This document shows, piece by piece, positions 15,685-28,513 of a stretch of 64,000 nt of DNA (its first letter is position 1; every line of letters begins with the position of its first letter). This DNA is from Kushneria avicenniae. GTDB lineage: Bacteria; Pseudomonadota; Gammaproteobacteria; Pseudomonadales; Halomonadaceae. Location of the stretch: contig NZ_FOLY01000001.1 of NCBI RefSeq assembly GCF_900112585.1, positions 186,001-250,000 of the forward strand, read 5' to 3'. Under the pieces are notes generated by a model. It did no database searches and had not been told where the DNA came from. It saw nothing but the letters and a program-made list of their open reading frames with translations. The position numbers and the translations under genes are program-made.

Positions 15685-17279
15685 CCCACGCTTCCGGCAG
15701 GCCTGTATTTTCACTGGAAAAACTGCGGGTATTGGCAGGCGATATACCGCTGGTCCACGGCGTCAGTCTCACCGTCGCGGCCGGTGAGACGCTGGCACTG
15801 GTAGGAGAATCCGGGTCCGGCAAGACCATGACCGCCATGGCAGCGCTGGATCTGGTGCCCCCCGGCATCCGGGTTGAAGGTCGTCGAACACTGGGTGATA
15901 CCTCGCTTGAGACGCTGTCCCCACGTGATTGGGAGGACCTCCATGGCGGCCGGGTGGGCGTGGTGTTTCAGGAGCCGATGAGCGCTCTGAACCCATTACA
16001 TCGCATCGGGCGCCAGATTGGCGAGGCCATTACCCTGCACCAGCCGCTTCGTGGTCGGGCCCTGCGAAAGCGCGCTCTCGAGCTGATGCAGCAGGTCCGA
16101 CTGCCCCGCCCCGAGCAGCTGATCGATGCCTGGCCGCATGAGCTTTCCGGCGGACAGCGCCAGCGTGTGGTCATCGCCATGGCGATTGCCAATCGTCCAG
16201 AGCTTTTGATTGCTGACGAGCCCACGACCGCACTTGATGTCACCGTGGCCCGCGACATTCTACTGCTGCTGAAGGAGCTGGCAGATTCGCTGGGTATGGC
16301 GATGCTTTTGATTACGCACGATCTCAATCTGGTACGGCGCTGGGCAGATCGTGTCTGTGTGCTGCATCGAGGGCGTGTTCAGGAGACCGGCAACACGGAT
16401 GAGGTTCTCGTGCGCCCGACCAGTATCCATACCCGCGCCCTGATTGATGCCGAACCGGAAGGCACGCCGGCCCCCGTGCTGGCACAGGCCCCCGAGGTCC
16501 TGTCGACGCGCGATCTATCGGTGGCCTTTCAAAGGCCGAAAGCGCTGTTCAGACCTCGCCCGTCACCTTTCGTGGCGCTTCATCCCGTGTCACTGACCCT
16601 GCGGCAGGGAGAAACGCTCGGGATTGTGGGTGAGTCCGGCTCCGGCAAGAGCACGCTGGCCCAGGCACTGCTGCGTCTGGTGGCTTCAACCGGCGAGATA
16701 AGACTGGGAGATACTCGGCTTGATCAATTGGGTGGCCGCGCGCTGCGATCAGAGCGCCGGCATGTGCAGATCGTCTTTCAGGATCCCTTCGGCGCGCTTT
16801 CCCCGCGCATGACTATCGAGGATATCGTCAGCGAGGGTTTGCGTTTTCACTTTCCCGAACTGGATCGTGATGCATTGCGTGATCAGGTGGCTCGGACACT
16901 GTCTTCGGTTGGAATTTCACTGGACGCGCTGGCGCGCTATCCGCACGAATTTTCCGGCGGTCAGCGCGCGCGCATCGCGCTGGCACGCGCGCTGATTCTG
17001 CAACCGCGCATTCTGGTGCTCGATGAGCCGACATCGTCGCTGGATCGTACCGTGCAGCGCCAGTTGATCGAACTGCTGCGGACGCTCCAGCAGGAGCGTC
17101 AGATCAGTTATCTGTTTATCAGCCATGATCTGGCTGTGGTCAGGGCCATGGCCCATCGCCTGATGGTCTTGAAAGAAGGTGAGTTGATCGAGCAGGGATC
17201 GACCCGGGAGGTAATCGAGCAGCCCCGCCACGTCTATACGCGTCAGCTTATAGAAGCGGCGTTTTATCGGTCGAGCTGA
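15681..17279 (+). CDS. yejF: Peptide ABC transporter, double ATPase subunit YejF
   Basis: A 532-residue ATPase with two fused nucleotide-binding domains. Domain 1 has Walker A GESGSGKTM (about 38-46), signature LSGGQRQRVVIAMA and Walker B LLIADEPTTALD. Domain 2 has Walker A GESGSGKST (about 316-324), signature FSGGQRARIALARA and Walker B ILVLDEPTSSLD. Each is followed by the His of the H-loop (ITHDLN, ISHDLA). It powers YejABE peptide import and ends the operon at a hairpin terminator. Confidence 0.95.
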   Translation: MTHASGRPVFSLEKLRVLAGDIPLVHGVSLTVAAGETLALVGESGSGKTMTAMAALDLVPPGIRVEGRRTLGDTSLETLSPRDWEDLHGGRVGVVFQEPMSALNPLHRIGRQIGEAITLHQPLRGRALRKRALELMQQVRLPRPEQLIDAWPHELSGGQRQRVVIAMAIANRPELLIADEPTTALDVTVARDILLLLKELADSLGMAMLLITHDLNLVRRWADRVCVLHRGRVQETGNTDEVLVRPTSIHTRALIDAEPEGTPAPVLAQAPEVLSTRDLSVAFQRPKALFRPRPSPFVALHPVSLTLRQGETLGIVGESGSGKSTLAQALLRLVASTGEIRLGDTRLDQLGGRALRSERRHVQIVFQDPFGALSPRMTIEDIVSEGLRFHFPELDRDALRDQVARTLSSVGISLDALARYPHEFSGGQRARIALARALILQPRILVLDEPTSSLDRTVQRQLIELLRTLQQERQISYLFISHDLAVVRAMAHRLMVLKEGELIEQGSTREVIEQPRHVYTRQLIEAAFYRSS

Positions 17280-17283
17280 TCGA

Positions 17284-17316
17284 CAAGAGCCCCGAGTGCT
17301 GTTGCCGGGGCTCTTG
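17284..17316. terminator. Hairpin between yejF and yafV
   Basis: An 11-bp perfect stem, CAAGAGCCCCG/CGGGGCTCTTG, starts five bases after the yejF stop, between convergent genes. There is no strong T tract on either side, but the position fits a shared terminator. Confidence 0.65.
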
Positions 17317-17348
17317 TACGATGGTTTGTCGGCGAAGGGCAATCGATA

Positions 17349-18131
17349 TCAGGGATGCAGCGTAAAACGATCCGCATCGTAATGGACCGGAAACTTCTCG
17401 CGGAAATCTTCCAGACTCTGCTTGCCGATTACCCCGGTGCGCACAAAGGCTCGGTCGGGTGCCTCGTCGATCAGCGCATCACCGCGGTAATCGATCAGCA
17501 TCGAGTCGCCGCTGTAATTCAGTCCCCGGGCATCATCTCCCACTCTGTTGACACCAATCACATAGCTTGCGTTTTCGATGGCACGCGCCTGCAGCAGCGT
17601 GCGCCAGGGGAGACGTCGCGCTGAAGGCCAGTTGGCGACGCAGAGCAGCACGTCGTATTCGCAATCAATGTTGCGCAGCCAGACGGGAAAACGCAGGTCA
17701 TAGCAGACGGTCAGCAGGATGTTGAAGCCGTTGAGCGAGACGACCGCACGCTGGCTGCCCATCGTGTAGTGATCGTTTTCCTCACCCATGCGAAACAGGT
17801 GACGCTTGTCATAGGTGGCCATGGTGCCATCGGGGCGAGCCCAGATCAGGCGATTGAAGTAATGGCCGTCTTCGACAATCGCCACGCTGCCGGTGACCAC
17901 CGCATTATGCGACTGCGCGGTTTTTTGCATCCACGCGACGGCTCGACTCTCCTGCATGGATTCGGCCATGCGCTCCGGCGCCATGGTGAAGCCGGTGGCA
18001 AACATTTCCGGCAAAACGATCAGGTCACTGGTGGTGACGTCCTGAAGCCACTCATCCAGCAGTTGGCAGTTGGCGTCAATATCTTCCCAGCGCAGATCGG
18101 CCTGTACCAGTGTGGTTCTCAGTTCATTCAT
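17349..18131 (-). CDS. yafV: Omega-amidase/nitrilase-family amidohydrolase YafV
   Basis: A 260-residue carbon-nitrogen hydrolase. The catalytic triad is visible: Glu42 in LPEMFATGF, Lys109 in YDKRHLF and Cys143 in TVCYDLRFP. The RHLFRMGEENDHY segment is characteristic of the YafV/Nit2 group, which removes the amide from alpha-ketoglutaramate or alpha-ketosuccinamate (metabolite repair after glutamine transamination). It is a single-gene unit, convergent with yejF. Confidence 0.9.
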   Translation of the reverse strand: MNELRTTLVQADLRWEDIDANCQLLDEWLQDVTTSDLIVLPEMFATGFTMAPERMAESMQESRAVAWMQKTAQSHNAVVTGSVAIVEDGHYFNRLIWARPDGTMATYDKRHLFRMGEENDHYTMGSQRAVVSLNGFNILLTVCYDLRFPVWLRNIDCEYDVLLCVANWPSARRLPWRTLLQARAIENASYVIGVNRVGDDARGLNYSGDSMLIDYRGDALIDEAPDRAFVRTGVIGKQSLEDFREKFPVHYDADRFTLHP

Positions 18132-18229
18132 GATGATAATCCAGTGCCTGCAAGCGGTTTAAACGAGTCCCGGCGTGGCACCTGACAGTGGTCTTCTTTG
18201 GTCGAAGATGATGGCCCTATCACATTCCT

Positions 18230-18437
18230 GTCATCTTGATCGGCCATGGTGGTCATGCCGGGAAAGAAAAGAAGATCGTGCAGGGAAGCACATGGACAGG
18301 GAGTCCAACGGTAACAGGAGGTTGACCGGGCTCAGCACGACTTCCGACAACAGTGGCACGTGTCATGCCTGGCGGCCAGCGAATCTGCTGGTCGGATCTT
18401 TCTCAAGGGGAAGGCCTGCAAGGGCCTTCCCCTTTTT
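18230..18437 (+). ncRNA. Candidate CsrA/RsmA-sequestering small RNA (CsrB/RsmY/RsmZ type)
   Basis: This 340-base gap between two minus-strand genes shows no convincing coding frame but strong RNA structure on the plus strand. Three consecutive hairpins each present a GGA in the loop. They are GTGC-AGGGAA-GCAC at 18278-18291, TGGAC-AGGGA-GTCCA at 18293-18307, and CGGTAAC-AGGAG-GTT(G)ACCG at 18309-18328 (seven pairs with one bulged G). Four more GGA triplets occur between 18261 and 18411. The transcript would end at a canonical U-tailed terminator (18405-18437). Exposed A(N)GGA loops are the known binding sites of CsrA/RsmA. The 5' end is a guess from a weak TATCAC -10 at 18218. I could not find a GacA-type upstream box. 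Confidence 0.65.
18405..18437 (+). terminator. Rho-independent terminator of the candidate sRNA
   Basis: A 12-bp perfect stem, AAGGGGAAGGCC/GGCCTTCCCCTT, with a six-base loop is followed by further T residues (T run 18433-18437). The U tract lies on the plus strand, while both flanking genes are on the minus strand. This independently points to a plus-strand transcript here. Confidence 0.85.
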
Positions 18438-18473
18438 CACTAGTGTTTATTCTCGGTTAGTGTTTCTTTTTGA

Positions 18474-19313
18474 TTAGTGCCCCTTCTCGAGAAAGTCGAT
18501 CAAAAGCGTATTGAGCTCCTGAGCATGGGTAAAATTCAGGCCGTGTGGGCCATCCTTCACAATCTCGAGACGAGCGTTCCTGATCATTTCACTTGAGCGC
18601 TGACCGCTCGCTGCCAGAGGCACAATCTGGTCATCGTCGCCGTGAATAACCAGCGTCGGCACATCGATGGTTTCCAGATCCCGGCGGAAATCGGTAAAGC
18701 CAAAGGCCTTGATGCACTCCTGAGTAGCACGCGGAGAAGCAAGGTTGGCAATGCTCTGGTTATAGGCCAGAAGCTCATCGGAAAGCGTGGGTGCCCTGCC
18801 CTCGTGATTGACAAACAGCTTGCCAAAGCCGCCCAGAAAACCGGGGCGATCCTTTTTAACGTTGGCCAGCATGTCATCAAAGATGGACTGATCCACGCCT
18901 TCCGGATTGTCATCGGTTTTGAGCATGAAGGGCGGCACAGCGCCCACCAGAACGGCACCGCGAACACGCTTGCTGCCATGACGCCCCAGATAACGAGCAA
19001 CCTCGCCGCCGCCCATCGAGAAACCGACCAGCGTGGCATCGTCGATGTCCAGATGCTCAAGAAGTCCGGCCAGATCATCGGCGAGCGTATCGTAGTCATA
19101 GCCGTGCCATGGCTTTTCCGAGTCACCAAAGCCGCGGCGATCGTAGGCTATGCAGCGATAGCCGGCGTCGGTCAGCGCGTTGATCTGGTACTCCCACATG
19201 CGATGACTCAGGGGCCAGCCGTGAATCAGCACTACGGCGGGGCCCTGACCGCAATCCTGATAATAGAGATCGATAGCGTTGTTGTTGCTGTCGATGATAT
19301 TGGCGTAAGCCAT
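18474..19313 (-). CDS. Alpha/beta hydrolase, arylesterase/non-haem chloroperoxidase-like
   Basis: A 279-residue alpha/beta hydrolase. The oxyanion-hole motif is LIHGWPLSHRMW (about 29-40), the nucleophile Ser99 sits in GFSMGGGE, an Asp lies in HGDDDQIVP, and the His is in KDGPHGLNFTH near the C-terminus. AYDRRGFGDSEKP is the usual strand 4 region of the cofactor-free haloperoxidase/esterase group. The natural substrate cannot be told from sequence. It stands alone on the minus strand. Confidence 0.82.
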   Translation of the reverse strand: MAYANIIDSNNNAIDLYYQDCGQGPAVVLIHGWPLSHRMWEYQINALTDAGYRCIAYDRRGFGDSEKPWHGYDYDTLADDLAGLLEHLDIDDATLVGFSMGGGEVARYLGRHGSKRVRGAVLVGAVPPFMLKTDDNPEGVDQSIFDDMLANVKKDRPGFLGGFGKLFVNHEGRAPTLSDELLAYNQSIANLASPRATQECIKAFGFTDFRRDLETIDVPTLVIHGDDDQIVPLAASGQRSSEMIRNARLEIVKDGPHGLNFTHAQELNTLLIDFLEKGH

Positions 19314-19404
19314 GAATCAGCCTCCCTTGTCCGATGGGTAATATAAGGCACAGTCTGCAAGGTAGCTCAGCAGCGTGATGGCTGCATGTCATGGCAGCGC
19401 GCAT

Positions 19405-19520
19405 AAAAAACCGCCTTCCCGGAGGAAAGGCGGCGAAAGGACCTGATGATGAGGAGAGAATCCATTTCAGCACCTGACATACTGAAATGAACCAGACGCC
19501 GTGGCGTCTGAGAAACACTC
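19405..19520 (-). ncRNA. Candidate small RNA B, structured, with intrinsic terminator
   Basis: Read on the minus strand, this segment has three ordered hairpins. First is the perfect 8-bp palindromic stem CAGACGCC/GGCGTCTG (19493-19510). Second is CATTTCAG/CTGAAATG with an 11-nt loop (19463-19489). Third is a terminator, CCGCC...GGCGG, followed by six Ts (19405-19433). Between hairpins two and three lies a single-stranded pyrimidine-rich stretch, TCTCTCCTCATCATCAGG, complementary to Shine-Dalgarno-like sequence, a usual feature of antisense-acting sRNAs. No coding frame ends at this terminator. A clear promoter was not found, so the 5' end is approximate. Confidence 0.5.
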
Positions 19521-19600
19521 TGGACGATTCAGAAAAGGAAATCAATGCAAAAGAGAATTATTTTTATTTGATACGTAATGCCATCCACATTCCTGCGGCC

Positions 19601-19700
19601 AAAAAAAACCGCCTCATCGAGGCGGTGTGAGGTTTGGACAGCCAACCGTTTAGTCAGGGTAAGTCGGCTGTCGCTGCTCCTCATCAAGCAGTAATTTGAT
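19601..19700 (-). ncRNA. Candidate small RNA A, about 100 nt, with promoter and terminator
   Basis: On the minus strand a -10 box, TATACT (19707-19712), would start a transcript near 19700. It contains a 5' unpaired stretch with TGATGAGGAG, a 10-bp stem (GACAGCCGAC/GTTGGCTGTC, one G-U pair, 19637-19672) and a terminator ACCGCCTC-GAT-GAGGCGGT with a run of at least seven Ts (19601-19626). The terminator cuts through the only open frame, which argues against a protein. The architecture is that of a typical trans-acting sRNA, but I recognise no family. Confidence 0.6.
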
Positions 19701-19706
19701 AAAAGC

Positions 19707-19735
19707 AGTATACCGCACAATTTGTGGGGATTTAA
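19707..19735 (-). promoter_or_regulatory. Putative sigma70 promoter of small RNA A
   Basis: On the minus strand, TTAAAT (19730-19735) is separated by 17 bases from TATACT (19707-19712). The -10 box is strong and the -35 weak. It lies just downstream of a long inverted repeat. Confidence 0.5.
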
Positions 19736-19737
19736 CG

Positions 19738-19770
19738 TAAATCTGCCAATGGGGTCCATTGGCAGATTTA
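19738..19770. repeat. Perfect 15-bp inverted repeat with 3-base loop
   Basis: TAAATCTGCCAATGG and its exact reverse complement CCATTGGCAGATTTA are separated by GGT. The repeat lies between the stop of the lipoprotein gene (19782) and the promoter of small RNA A. It may act as a terminator for the lipoprotein gene. However, the T-rich side (TTTTTT on the minus strand) comes before the stem for that gene, so an operator or RNA-processing role is also possible. Confidence 0.7.
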
Positions 19771-19781
19771 AAAAATACAAA

Positions 19782-20135
19782 TCACCCCTGACCTTCACAG
19801 GGATACCACTTGTTGCGCTGGTCGATGATCTCACGCGGATAGCCGGTCATCTGAATGGACGGCTGTTTCATCGCCTCGGCGCGCAGGACATTGACGTGCA
19901 TGTTGTCCGGTGAGTCCACGGAAACCACTTTTCCGATCATCAGAAAGTTGCCCCACAGCTTGTCGCTATAGGGCTGACAGACATTCATGCCGTTATAGCC
20001 CACCAGTGTCGGCGGAGGCGGCACAGCCGCAGCACCCTGGGGTTTGTCTGAAGAAAACAGGGAACAGCCTGATAGTGCACCGATGGCGACCGTAATACCC
20101 AGCCACAGTGTTGCGCTTTTCAATTGACGAGCCAC
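19782..20135 (-). CDS. Small lipoprotein of unknown function
   Basis: A 117-residue protein with a lipoprotein signal: a basic start (ARQLK), a hydrophobic core and the lipobox LSGC at about residue 24, followed by SLFSSDK. Lipid attachment at the outer membrane is likely, since Ser and not Asp follows the Cys. The mature part contains a Pro run (PPPP) and a pair of Cys residues (NVCQPYSDK and KWYPCEGQ) that could form a disulfide. The start is GTG at 20135, preceded by AGGAGAAAGGC; the longer frame lacks a sensible start. No family is recognised. Confidence 0.75.
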   Translation of the reverse strand: MARQLKSATLWLGITVAIGALSGCSLFSSDKPQGAAAVPPPPTLVGYNGMNVCQPYSDKLWGNFLMIGKVVSVDSPDNMHVNVLRAEAMKQPSIQMTGYPREIIDQRNKWYPCEGQG

Positions 20136-20282
20136 GCCTTTCTCCTGAACCTGCAATGGACAAGGATCAATAATGCTTAAGCGCCAGAAAAGGTATCGGG
20201 CGCGGGCGCCAGCATAACCGTGATGCTCAAGGCTTGTCCCGAGTATTTTCGCAGGCATCCATCGACTTTCGTCGCGATGCGA

Positions 20283-20420
20283 TCAGGTTCGCTTGCGCCA
20301 TAGATCCCAGGCGACACCACAGGCAACGCCAAGAAGAATGGAAGGCGCCACGCTCTGGGTAGGTAACCATACCGCCAGACCGATGATGGTGCCGACCAGC
20401 ATACCCGGAAGTTTTTTCAT
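20283..20420 (-). CDS. Small membrane protein, 45 residues, unknown function
   Basis: A short frame from ATG at 20420: it begins MKKLPGMLVGTIIGLAVWLP and ends VAWDLWRKRT. It has two hydrophobic segments (about 7-19 and 27-38) separated by a Pro/Gln/Ser turn, and a basic C-terminus, the look of a small inner-membrane hairpin protein with the tail in the cytoplasm. A larger overlapping frame in another phase has no such character. The ribosome site is weak (CAGGAC). It lies just upstream of the unknown lipoprotein gene on the same strand, so co-transcription is possible. No function is assigned. Confidence 0.6.
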   Translation of the reverse strand: MKKLPGMLVGTIIGLAVWLPTQSVAPSILLGVACGVAWDLWRKRT

Positions 20421-20555
20421 CGCATTTGTCCTGATCAGTAAATTCCGACCCATTCAAGCGGCCACTTCACCCCTGGAGGCGATATCTTGAGGTGTGAATG
20501 AGCATGTCCAGCAGGATAGAGAAAGGTCACCGCCATACAAGGAGGCATACAGACA

Positions 20556-20592
20556 CGAAAAAGCCGCTTCGGCAATTAACCGTAAGCGGCTT
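20556..20592 (-). terminator. Terminator of the tRNA-Pro transcript
   Basis: On the minus strand a 9-bp stem, AAGCCGCTT/AAGCGGCTT, is followed by TTTTTC, about 15 bases downstream of the tRNA 3' end. Confidence 0.8.
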
Positions 20593-20606
20593 GTTCATGA
20601 TGTTTC

Positions 20607-20683
20607 TGGTCGGGGCGACAGGATTCGAACCTGCGACCTCCACAACCCCATTGTGGCGCGCTACCAAACTGCGCTACGCCCCG
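20607..20683 (-). tRNA. tRNA-Pro (GGG anticodon)
   Basis: A 77-nt cloverleaf on the minus strand with encoded CCA. The acceptor is CGGGGCG/CGCCCCG with discriminator A, the D-arm contains AGCGCAGTTTGGTAGCG, the anticodon stem CCACA/TGTGG encloses ATGGGGT (anticodon GGG), and the T-arm reads GGTTCGAATCC. It is a single tRNA gene with its own promoter and terminator. Confidence 0.96.
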
Positions 20684-20716
20684 ACACTGTTCCCGATATC
20701 GCCGAGAACGGTGCGT

Positions 20717-20745
20717 ATCCTACATTACTGTTCTGCAAAAGGAAA
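20717..20745 (-). promoter_or_regulatory. Putative promoter of tRNA-Pro
   Basis: On the minus strand, TTTCCT (20740-20745), a 17-base spacer and TAGGAT (20717-20722) lie about 34 bases before the tRNA 5' end. Both boxes are imperfect, but the spacing is right. Confidence 0.4.
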
Positions 20746-20770
20746 GGGATGTTCACGAACTTTCAGGAAA

Positions 20771-21424
20771 TCATTCCGAGGTCATCATTGCTGCGATATC
20801 ATCAATACGCGTCAGACAGATCCGACCGCTGAAAAACGAGCCAAGATCGATATAGCGTACGTTGCCAAGCGTTCTGGGCTCGGGCACTGGAGTATGCCCT
20901 ACGACCACGGCATCGATATTGGCAACCACACGCTGGTCGCTGGACTCGATACGCTTTCGCGACCATAACAGCGTTTCTCGAGAGGTTTTTCGAATATCGG
21001 CCCAGTCCAGCGGTGGTTCGGCATGAACGATGCCCACGACGCCATGAGCGGTTTCGACCTCAAAGGCCAGCGGCATTTTCATCATGGCCTCGGCAAGGCG
21101 GTTTCTCAGTGAGACCTTGTCATACTGTTGTGACCACTCTCCCCCGTTGCTCAGCCACTGTCCCCAGTGGTTATCGAAAAGCGCGTTGCGCGCCATCATT
21201 TCGTGATTGCCGGTCACCGCATGACACCCCGGCTGGTGGACCAGCTCAAGACACCGCAGCGAATCGGGCCCACGATCGATCAGATCGCCCACGCTGAAAA
21301 GCCGGTCTTTATCGGCGTCGAATTCAACCCGAGTCAGCGCCTGCTCGAGTAACGCGTAATGCCCGTGCAGATCGCCCACCACATAGTCATGACCGCTGAC
21401 ATTGCGCTCGAATCGCTTGAGCAT
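20771..21424 (-). CDS. PPP-family metallophosphatase (PrpA/PrpB-like)
   Basis: A 217-residue phosphoprotein phosphatase with the full motif series of bacteriophage lambda/PrpA-type enzymes: GDLHGHY at 17-23, [10 protein letters not shown] at 46-55, GNHE at 72-75, and the later His residues in VHAEPPLDW and VVVGHTPVP. These bind a dinuclear metal centre, usually Mn. Family members dephosphorylate Ser/Thr (sometimes Tyr) residues; PrpA in E. coli is linked to misfolded-protein signalling. The substrate here is unknown. It is a single gene. Confidence 0.85.
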
Positions 21425-21497
21425 TCATGAACTCCAGAAATTATTGAGCAAACGCCACATCATAAACGATGCAGACAGTATTTTTGACGCGATGACA

Positions 21498-21653
21498 TCA
21501 GGTCACAACGATCAGGGCGTGAATAATACCGGGTATGTAGCCCATGAGGGTAAGCAGAAGGTTAAGCCAGAGCGCATCGCCTGCGCCAACGGCCAGATAA
21601 ACTGCCAGAGGTGGCAACAAAAAGGAGAGAACGATCAGTGACAGGGGATCCAT
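21498..21653 (-). CDS. yqaE: YqaE/Pmp3-family small membrane protein
   Basis: A 51-residue hydrophobic protein with two transmembrane helices in the Pmp3/YqaE pattern: PLSLIVLSFLLPPLAVYLAVG, then LWLNLLLTLMGYIPGIIHAL. The family is widespread and often induced by salt or membrane stress, which fits a halophile, though its function is unclear. The start is chosen at the Met that begins the family domain (MDPLS). A ten-residue upstream extension is possible but lacks family similarity. Confidence 0.88.
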   Translation of the reverse strand: MDPLSLIVLSFLLPPLAVYLAVGAGDALWLNLLLTLMGYIPGIIHALIVVT

Positions 21654-21703
21654 GAGTGCGGTCCCGCCGGCAGGGCCATACAATGCCCTGCCGACACAAG
21701 AGC

Positions 21704-22228
21704 TTACCAGCTGATGGCGTTTTTGACCTGCTCGGGACTCAACACATGACGTGCAAACTGTTGTCCCAGCATGGAAGACGCATCGTACGGATTTTGCGTA
21801 TTGATGTAGGCGACCAGCACCTGATCATTCTTGGTACCGATAACGTGAGCCGGCGTTGAACCGCTGCGATCCCTGGCCTGATCCTGCATCTGATCCCACT
21901 CCTGCTGAGGATAGGCGACCAGCGCCAGCAGCGGCGCAGGCGTGCTGTCGATCTCGTAGTTCTTGTAGTAGAACACCGCCATGTTGCGGGCTTCGATGCG
22001 CTGATTGTTCCACTCAAAGGTGTCACGCTGCACAACGCTGTTTTGCCAGCTTTCGGGATAGGTGAAGGTGTAACCTACAGTCGTGTTTCGATAGCCCTGC
22101 TGGGACGACTGGATCACGCTGTCAATGTTGGGATCATTTTGCTTCGGCTCGGAGCTTGAGCAGCCTGCCACGGCGAACATGGCACCTGCGATGGCCAGCG
22201 CGGTGGCCCCTTTTTTAGTAAAAGACAT
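21704..22228 (-). CDS. Lipoprotein of unknown function
   Basis: A 174-residue protein with a clear lipoprotein signal ending in lipobox VAGC at about 20-23, followed by SSSEPKQ. The mature part has the pattern of a PsbP/DUF-type beta protein: TVGYTFTYPESWQNSVVQ and NMAVFYYKNYEIDSTP, but I cannot place it firmly. The start ATG at 22228 has a perfect AGGAGG seven bases upstream. It probably faces the periplasm on the outer membrane. Confidence 0.75.
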   Translation of the reverse strand: MSFTKKGATALAIAGAMFAVAGCSSSEPKQNDPNIDSVIQSSQQGYRNTTVGYTFTYPESWQNSVVQRDTFEWNNQRIEARNMAVFYYKNYEIDSTPAPLLALVAYPQQEWDQMQDQARDRSGSTPAHVIGTKNDQVLVAYINTQNPYDASSMLGQQFARHVLSPEQVKNAISW

Positions 22229-28214: not shown

Positions 28215-28243
28215 TTGACTCCATGATTGCCCCGGCCCACGAT
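28215..28243 (+). promoter_or_regulatory. Putative promoter of the riboswitch-controlled cobalamin operon
   Basis: TTGACT (28215-28220), a 17-base spacer and CACGAT (28238-28243) place a start point near 28250, exactly where the riboswitch begins. The -35 is good and the -10 poor. Confidence 0.45.
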
Positions 28244-28249
28244 GAGCAG

Positions 28250-28435
28250 CGCTCGGGTGCCCGTGTCGTCTGCACGGGATAATCGGGAAAGTGATGCAAG
28301 TTCACTGCTGTCCCCGCAACGGTAATCGAGTGGCCTGAAGCAGGCATATCACCACTGACCCTCATGGTCGGGAAGGTGCTTCGGCCCGGCAGAACAATGC
28401 TCTGCCAGCTCGTCAGCCCGGAGACCGGCCCGGCG
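28250..28435 (+). ncRNA. Cobalamin riboswitch
   Basis: The conserved blocks of the adenosylcobalamin-type riboswitch appear in order on the plus strand: GGGTGCC near 28255, CGGGAAAGTGATGCAAG (28284-28300), the B12 box GCTGTCCCCGCAACGGTAAT (28306-28325), CCACTGACC..GGTCGGGAAGGTG (about 28352-28378) and the closing AGCCCGGAGACCGGCC (28415-28430). Cobalamin binding would lower expression of the chelatase-cobO-cobB-cobE-cobW-cobN-cobQ operon downstream. About 200 bases separate it from the first large gene. I saw no clear terminator, so translational control or an unseen structure is possible. Confidence 0.93.
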
Positions 28436-28513
28436 ATAATACAGGGTGGTGATGCTCACGACATCATCAGTAACGACTGCCACGCGTACGGGTCGATACG
28501 CAGGAGCATACGA

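Follow-up and report, generated by a model that had tools for sequence, protein, structure and literature searches.

RsmX, RsmY and RsmZ of Pseudomonas are short RNAs that combine a few GGA-loop hairpins with a terminator. The element described here, located in the window (the whole 64-kb stretch of DNA that was analysed) of a Kushneria genome (G000), is like them in these respects but unlike them in having neither an Rfam match nor a nearby GacA box and in belonging to a genus where no GacA orthologue was found. CsrB and CsrC of E. coli and Vibrio likewise consist of arrayed A(N)GGA hairpins for the titration of CsrA. Three good sites are few for the Csr/Rsm sponge class. The three sites of the window RNA contrast with the 23 to 28 putative motifs given for the Vibrio cholerae RNAs in the accessible part of a review (PMC7366521). 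The same part of this review describes RsmV and RsmW of P. aeruginosa as sponges that are independent of GacA. The window RNA can be likened to these two, by description only, as a lineage-specific and GacA-independent sponge, although RsmV and RsmW coexist with a GacA system and none was found in Kushneria. CsrR1 and CsrR2 of Alcanivorax dieselolei, also compared by description, differ in that they are reported to be conserved within Alcanivorax only.

The element is likely to be a plus-strand gene for a small noncoding RNA that acts as a CsrA sponge, shares G000 with at least one other GGA array and is not switched by GacA, and we hold this reading with good confidence. It is preferred because the GGA hairpins are conserved, the base changes fit the plus strand, no reading frame is conserved, a terminator-like hairpin is conserved and a csrA gene is present. 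Within the sequence and literature searches made, this member is new and its kind is already known, since GacA-independent sponges have been described in RsmV and RsmW (PMC7366521, accessible part). Among open-licence papers, as far as their searchable text goes, none joining Kushneria and CsrA was found, and those retrieved for Kushneria and small RNA were off-subject. The cognate sRNA of Halomonas anticariensis is listed as unknown in a table of the review (PMC7366521, accessible part), and the window RNA is a candidate CsrA antagonist for the family to which that entry refers.

Location and hairpins of the candidate RNA gene

The element occupies a plus-strand intergenic segment between two minus-strand genes, and the gene neighbours agree in this with the initial annotation. 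The divergent neighbour is a carbon-nitrogen hydrolase gene (17349-18131, PF00795) and the convergent neighbour an alpha/beta hydrolase gene (18474-19313, PF00561). The three consecutive GGA-loop hairpins that had been reported were recovered by direct reading of the plus strand at 18278-18324, and folding gave the same structures: hairpin 1 (18278-18291; GTGC-AGGGAA-GCAC, loop AGGGAA), hairpin 2 (18293-18307; TGGAC-AGGGA-GTCCA, loop AGGGA) and hairpin 3 (18312-18324; TAAC-AGGAG-GTTG, loop AGGAG). Hairpin 3 has a weak stem, closed by a U-G pair and containing a single G-C pair. The previously reported count of seven GGA triplets between 18261 and 18411 is correct, their starts being 18261, 18284, 18294, 18300, 18317, 18394 and 18409. 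In a fold of the window sequence, stem pairing conceals the GGAs at 18294 and 18394, and the GGAs in the three hairpin loops have probabilities of 0.86 to 1.00 of being open. The GGAs of the hairpin loops are spaced by 16-17 nt, which suits the binding of one CsrA dimer to two hairpins.

Upstream of the array, the minimum-free-energy fold contains a possible 5' hairpin (18240-18261, plus strand), with a GGA starting at 18261; the RNA includes this hairpin only if its start point lies further upstream. Downstream, a linker (18325-18372, plus strand) may form an imperfect stem near CACG/CGTG; this helix (helix 4) extends back to about 18329, and 84.3% of its cells are paired. A first terminator-like hairpin with a weak tail (18373-18394, plus strand) was listed by the terminator scan and is present in all seven species that carry the element. 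A second and stronger one with a T tail (18405-18437, plus strand), not present in all species, corresponds to the strong U-tailed terminator of the initial annotation: reading and folding gave a 13-bp stem at 18405-18434 followed by TTT, and it is counted as a terminator on this basis, as it was absent from the list given by the scan. In 18000-18600, the scan listed two terminators against 0.4 expected in shuffles, namely 18373-18394 on the plus strand and hairpin 1 on the minus strand, where the latter scored as terminator-like with the tail ATCTTCTTTT.

Single GGA-loop hairpins are common, with 38 per strand in the window and 39 on average in shuffles. An array of three within 60 nt (stems of at least four pairs with at least one G-C pair) occurred once in the 64-kb window when both strands were searched, once in total in 100 shuffles of 64 kb (one strand each) and never in 5000 shuffles of 18240-18402. 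The requirement for one G-C pair was adopted after hairpin 3 had failed a stricter first rule of at least two G-C pairs per stem, which was passed by hairpins 1 and 2 only. Folding of the segment also beat 200 of 200 dinucleotide shuffles in both tests (z of -3.89 and -4.78).

No covariance-model match to a Csr/Rsm family of Rfam (CsrB, CsrC, RsmX, RsmY and RsmZ) was obtained at the gathering score in the 64-kb window or up to an E-value of 10 in 17900-18700, and none of relevance was obtained up to an E-value of 0.5 in eight loci, which comprise six orthologues together with the arrays of G008 and G001 described below. A comparison with Rfam models had been proposed in the initial annotation. 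Elsewhere in the window, a cobalamin riboswitch is located at 28237-28447 on the plus strand (108.9 bits).

Conservation in Kushneria and alternative readings

A DNA search placed the element at the same genomic position in 7 of the 10 Kushneria genomes, including G000, and its pattern was also matched in records of Kushneria indalinina, K. phyllosphaerae, K. pakistanensis and an uncultured Kushneria. A covariance model built from the seven orthologues (R1) had these same seven as its strong matches, and its application to 201 family genomes, with stricter filters under which weak matches are lost, yielded no further strong match. The element was not matched in plasmids (blastn) or in viral contigs (one pattern), and 26 carbon-nitrogen hydrolase loci outside the genus, drawn from 50 non-Kushneria genomes with a match, contained neither a three-hairpin array nor an R1 match. 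Five weak R1 matches in other genera (L028-L032, E-values of 1.5e-5 to 8.4e-3) were judged to be chance matches because they overlap with open frames of at least 90 codons and contain no array by the 4-in-110 test. Ten weak matches were found inside the genus; those in G008 (L018) and G001 (L020) were kept as array holders, and the other eight were dropped, six on inspection and two (L026 and L027) unread. All 10 Kushneria genomes have the carbon-nitrogen hydrolase, and the element is absent beside it in G001, G006 and G008. In G001, where the hydrolase gave two part-length matches, its first half was matched twice at sites about 4 kb apart (L052 and L053; C2:97016 and C2:101197), and one of these copies sits in an 818-codon open frame, as if by partial duplication or insertion.

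Within the intergenic stretch, conservation is highest in the hairpin region. Mean pairwise identity among the seven species is 0.52 in 18132-18211, 0.79 in 18212-18240, 0.83 in the A-rich stretch 18263-18277 and 0.90 in the three hairpins; it is 0.77 in both the linker (18328-18372) and the first terminator stem, 0.43 in 18395-18437 and 0.10 in the final 36 bases before the alpha/beta hydrolase gene (18438-18473). The upstream conserved block (18212-18240, plus strand, with TATCACATTCCTGTCATCTTGAT from 18218) is a candidate promoter or regulator site, which could also serve the divergent minus-strand gene. The A(N)GGA motif is kept in loops 1 and 3 of all seven species and in loop 2 of six, the exception being G005, whose loop 2 reads AGGCA and has lost its GGA. 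By the array rule, five of the seven species have three hairpins and two (G005 and G007) have two; in G007, one pair of stem 2 is broken. The stem of hairpin 1 is paired and invariant throughout, that of hairpin 3 is paired in all seven species with UG/CG and AU/GU variants, and that of 18373-18394 is paired in all seven with one compensatory pair and is followed by T-rich tails in the relatives.

In the alignment of the orthologues (A5), a 31-pair structure has standard pairs in 94.5% of its cells. Both sides have changed in only 1 of the 31 pairs, and the covariation score was reached by 53 of 500 shuffles; the stems are therefore conserved rather than proven by covariation, and the expectation that they would hold in relatives stands for conservation but finds little covariation behind it. 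Read as plus strand, the stems of the three hairpins and of the first terminator have standard pairs in 146 of 147 cells, against 135 of 147 when read as minus strand, because most variants are of G-U types that keep pairing on the plus strand and would break it on the minus strand. These base changes favour the plus strand and speak against coding. When hairpins 1 and 2 were aligned with a similar pair in the arrays of G006 and G008, hairpin 1 gained two compensatory pairs and the score was reached by 7 of 500 shuffles, a result that presupposes that those arrays and the window RNA are homologous. It is weakened by a control in which sliding the partners by +2 gave almost as high a score (0.254 against 0.262), with 50% of cells paired against 98%.

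Some folds compete with the array. In the RNAalifold consensus, hairpin 3 pairs instead with a downstream CUUCC. In single-sequence folds, loop GGAs are buried in G003 (loops 1 and 2), G009 (loops 1 and 3) and G002 (loop 2) and partly buried in G007 (loops 1 and 2) and G004 (loop 3).

A 100-codon open frame on the plus strand (18175-18477) could be taken for a short protein gene, and the same frame is open across 18212-18400 in G005 and G003 as well. It is interrupted in four of the six relatives, and the length of 18212-18400 is 188, 189 or 190 in the seven species and therefore shifts the frame; a protein gene is scarcely credible here. We also give very little credence to a cis-acting element, in which hairpin 1 would be the minus-strand terminator of the alpha/beta hydrolase gene or the element would be part of the upstream region of the carbon-nitrogen hydrolase gene. 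The minus-strand score of hairpin 1, with its tail drawn from the conserved A-rich stretch, and the position kept beside the hydrolase in seven species are what such an element would give, and the block at 18212-18240 may belong to the carbon-nitrogen hydrolase promoter. However, such an element leaves hairpins 2 and 3 and the GGA in their loops unexplained, the G-U variants of the plus strand become A-C mismatches on the minus strand, T-rich tails follow 18373-18394 and 18405-18434 on the plus strand, and G001 (where the gene is split), G006 and G008 have the carbon-nitrogen hydrolase without the element. Within the sponge reading, hairpin 1 together with the A-rich stretch (18263-18291) may still double as a minus-strand terminator for the alpha/beta hydrolase transcript.

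A conserved noncoding stretch with terminator-like ends would also be expected of a small RNA that acts mainly by base-pairing with mRNAs, its GGA loops being seeds for pyrimidine-rich targets. The AGGA and AGGGA loops could pair with UCCU stretches, and the linker is conserved likewise. This explanation seems unlikely, however, as the conserved loops of these short hairpins match A(N)GGA, the signature of CsrA sites, three times over, and hairpins of this type form longer arrays in the Kushneria genomes that lack the gene.

CsrA, GacA and the predicted mode of action

One csrA gene, the presence of which the sponge proposal had called for, was found in G000 (3.6 Mb, 16 contigs) at G000:C11:284586-284741 (PF02599 over the cut-off, 91 bits), and its product keeps L4 and R44, which are important residues of CsrA. 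In G000, the best score of the model for GacA/UvrY (NF007018) was 67 bits, below its cut-off of 280. In the 151 family genomes searched, the curated cut-off was exceeded in none of the 10 Kushneria genomes and in 86 of the 141 others. Many genomes of other genera fall somewhat under the cut-off, at 231 to 280 bits, and the gap in E-values is therefore a better guide: at 1e-30, matches were present in 132 of the 141 other genomes, 131 of which reach 1e-56 or better, and in three of the 10 Kushneria genomes, all at about 1e-31. Nine non-Kushneria genomes from six genera are also without a match at this threshold, and the absence is thus not unique to Kushneria.

The earlier failure to see a GacA-type box upstream was borne out by a search of 17253-21771, which gave no match with up to three mismatches to the box consensus; with this consensus, the whole window contains eight matches against 8.5 expected by chance. 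As the genus yielded no GacA orthologue, control of the element is probably not of the GacA type and probably differs from the textbook scheme, in line with the initial annotation, which had suggested that it might differ from the known cases. The element raises the question of how CsrA is controlled where GacA is missing.

A noncoding transcript is predicted from the terminator-like hairpins and the lack of a conserved frame, without a promoter consensus: the promoter scan gave no sigma-70 consensus promoter, and no convincing -10/-35 pair was seen by eye. The RNA would be about 140-210 nt long, starting within about 18225-18262 and ending at about 18400 or at 18437. Transcription would be directed toward the alpha/beta hydrolase gene, would stop at one or both of the terminator-like hairpins and would probably not be switched by GacA, unlike that of the E. 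coli or Pseudomonas sponges. The site of a regulator would be sought in the block at 18212-18240. The loops are predicted to present A(N)GGA, to bind CsrA dimers and to keep them off mRNA targets; with two to three exposed CsrA sites, each molecule would therefore bind one or two dimers.

Other GGA arrays in the genus

A pattern search in G000 gave 12 matches against four in the control, and two of them were taken further, namely the element and a second array outside the window; further arrays may exist in this genome. The initial annotation had called the window RNA the Csr/Rsm sponge of its lineage or one of several. The second wording fits better because G000 has a further GGA array, if not more, and additional ones occur in other Kushneria genomes, and on sequence grounds the window RNA is probably one of several sponges.

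The three Kushneria genomes without the window RNA have larger GGA arrays elsewhere. In G008 and G006 (L091 in G008:C5 and L092 in G006:C1), eight GGA hairpins follow a HAD-type hydrolase gene at a distance of about 300 bases. Among the 10 Kushneria genomes, an array is found at that place in these two only. R1 matched the G008 array (E-value of 1.4e-4) through a similar hairpin pair, and these eight-hairpin arrays look more CsrB-like than the window RNA. The array of G001 (L093:700-950 in G001:C28; R1 match L020) lies behind a gene for a PAS/LuxR-type regulator. With seven genomes carrying the window RNA and three carrying other arrays, the genus provides natural replicates that could show the origin, expansion and replacement of sponge RNAs.

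The second array of G000 (L084:1460-1624, corresponding to G000:C10:566459-566623) comprises seven GGA-loop hairpins by pattern search and folding. It forms a leader with a GGA-rich ribosome-binding region directly before an 83-codon frame, the product of which has two Cys-x2-Cys pairs, appears zinc-ribbon-like by eye and has no Pfam match, and it is preceded by the palindrome TGTACAAGGCTTGTACA. The leader array passes the 4-in-110 test in eight Kushneria genomes, i.e. the seven with the window RNA and G001, and the palindrome or a close variant accompanies it in each of them. G006 has a related small protein, the leader of which fails both array tests, and G008 was not among the matches listed for this protein. 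Outside the genus, the leader array was found in 5 of the 11 best-per-genome loci inspected (L114-L124), all five in one genus (g4). The leader array may be a CsrA-bound mRNA leader, a sponge or both.

A broader proposal, which we regard as tentative, is that the Csr system of Kushneria has been rewired: GacA would have been lost, lineage-specific sponges that titrate CsrA would replace one another between species (the window RNA in seven genomes and other arrays in three), and a GGA-array leader before the gene for a small Cys-rich protein, with an operator-like palindrome upstream, would have expanded to twelve loops in one species. That species is G003, whose leader (L085:1334-1606, minus strand of G003:C1) contains twelve AGGGAC loops in a 23-bp tandem repeat of 11.9 copies. 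The repeat unit spans the distance between loops 1 and 2, the pattern expected if identical loops had recombined.
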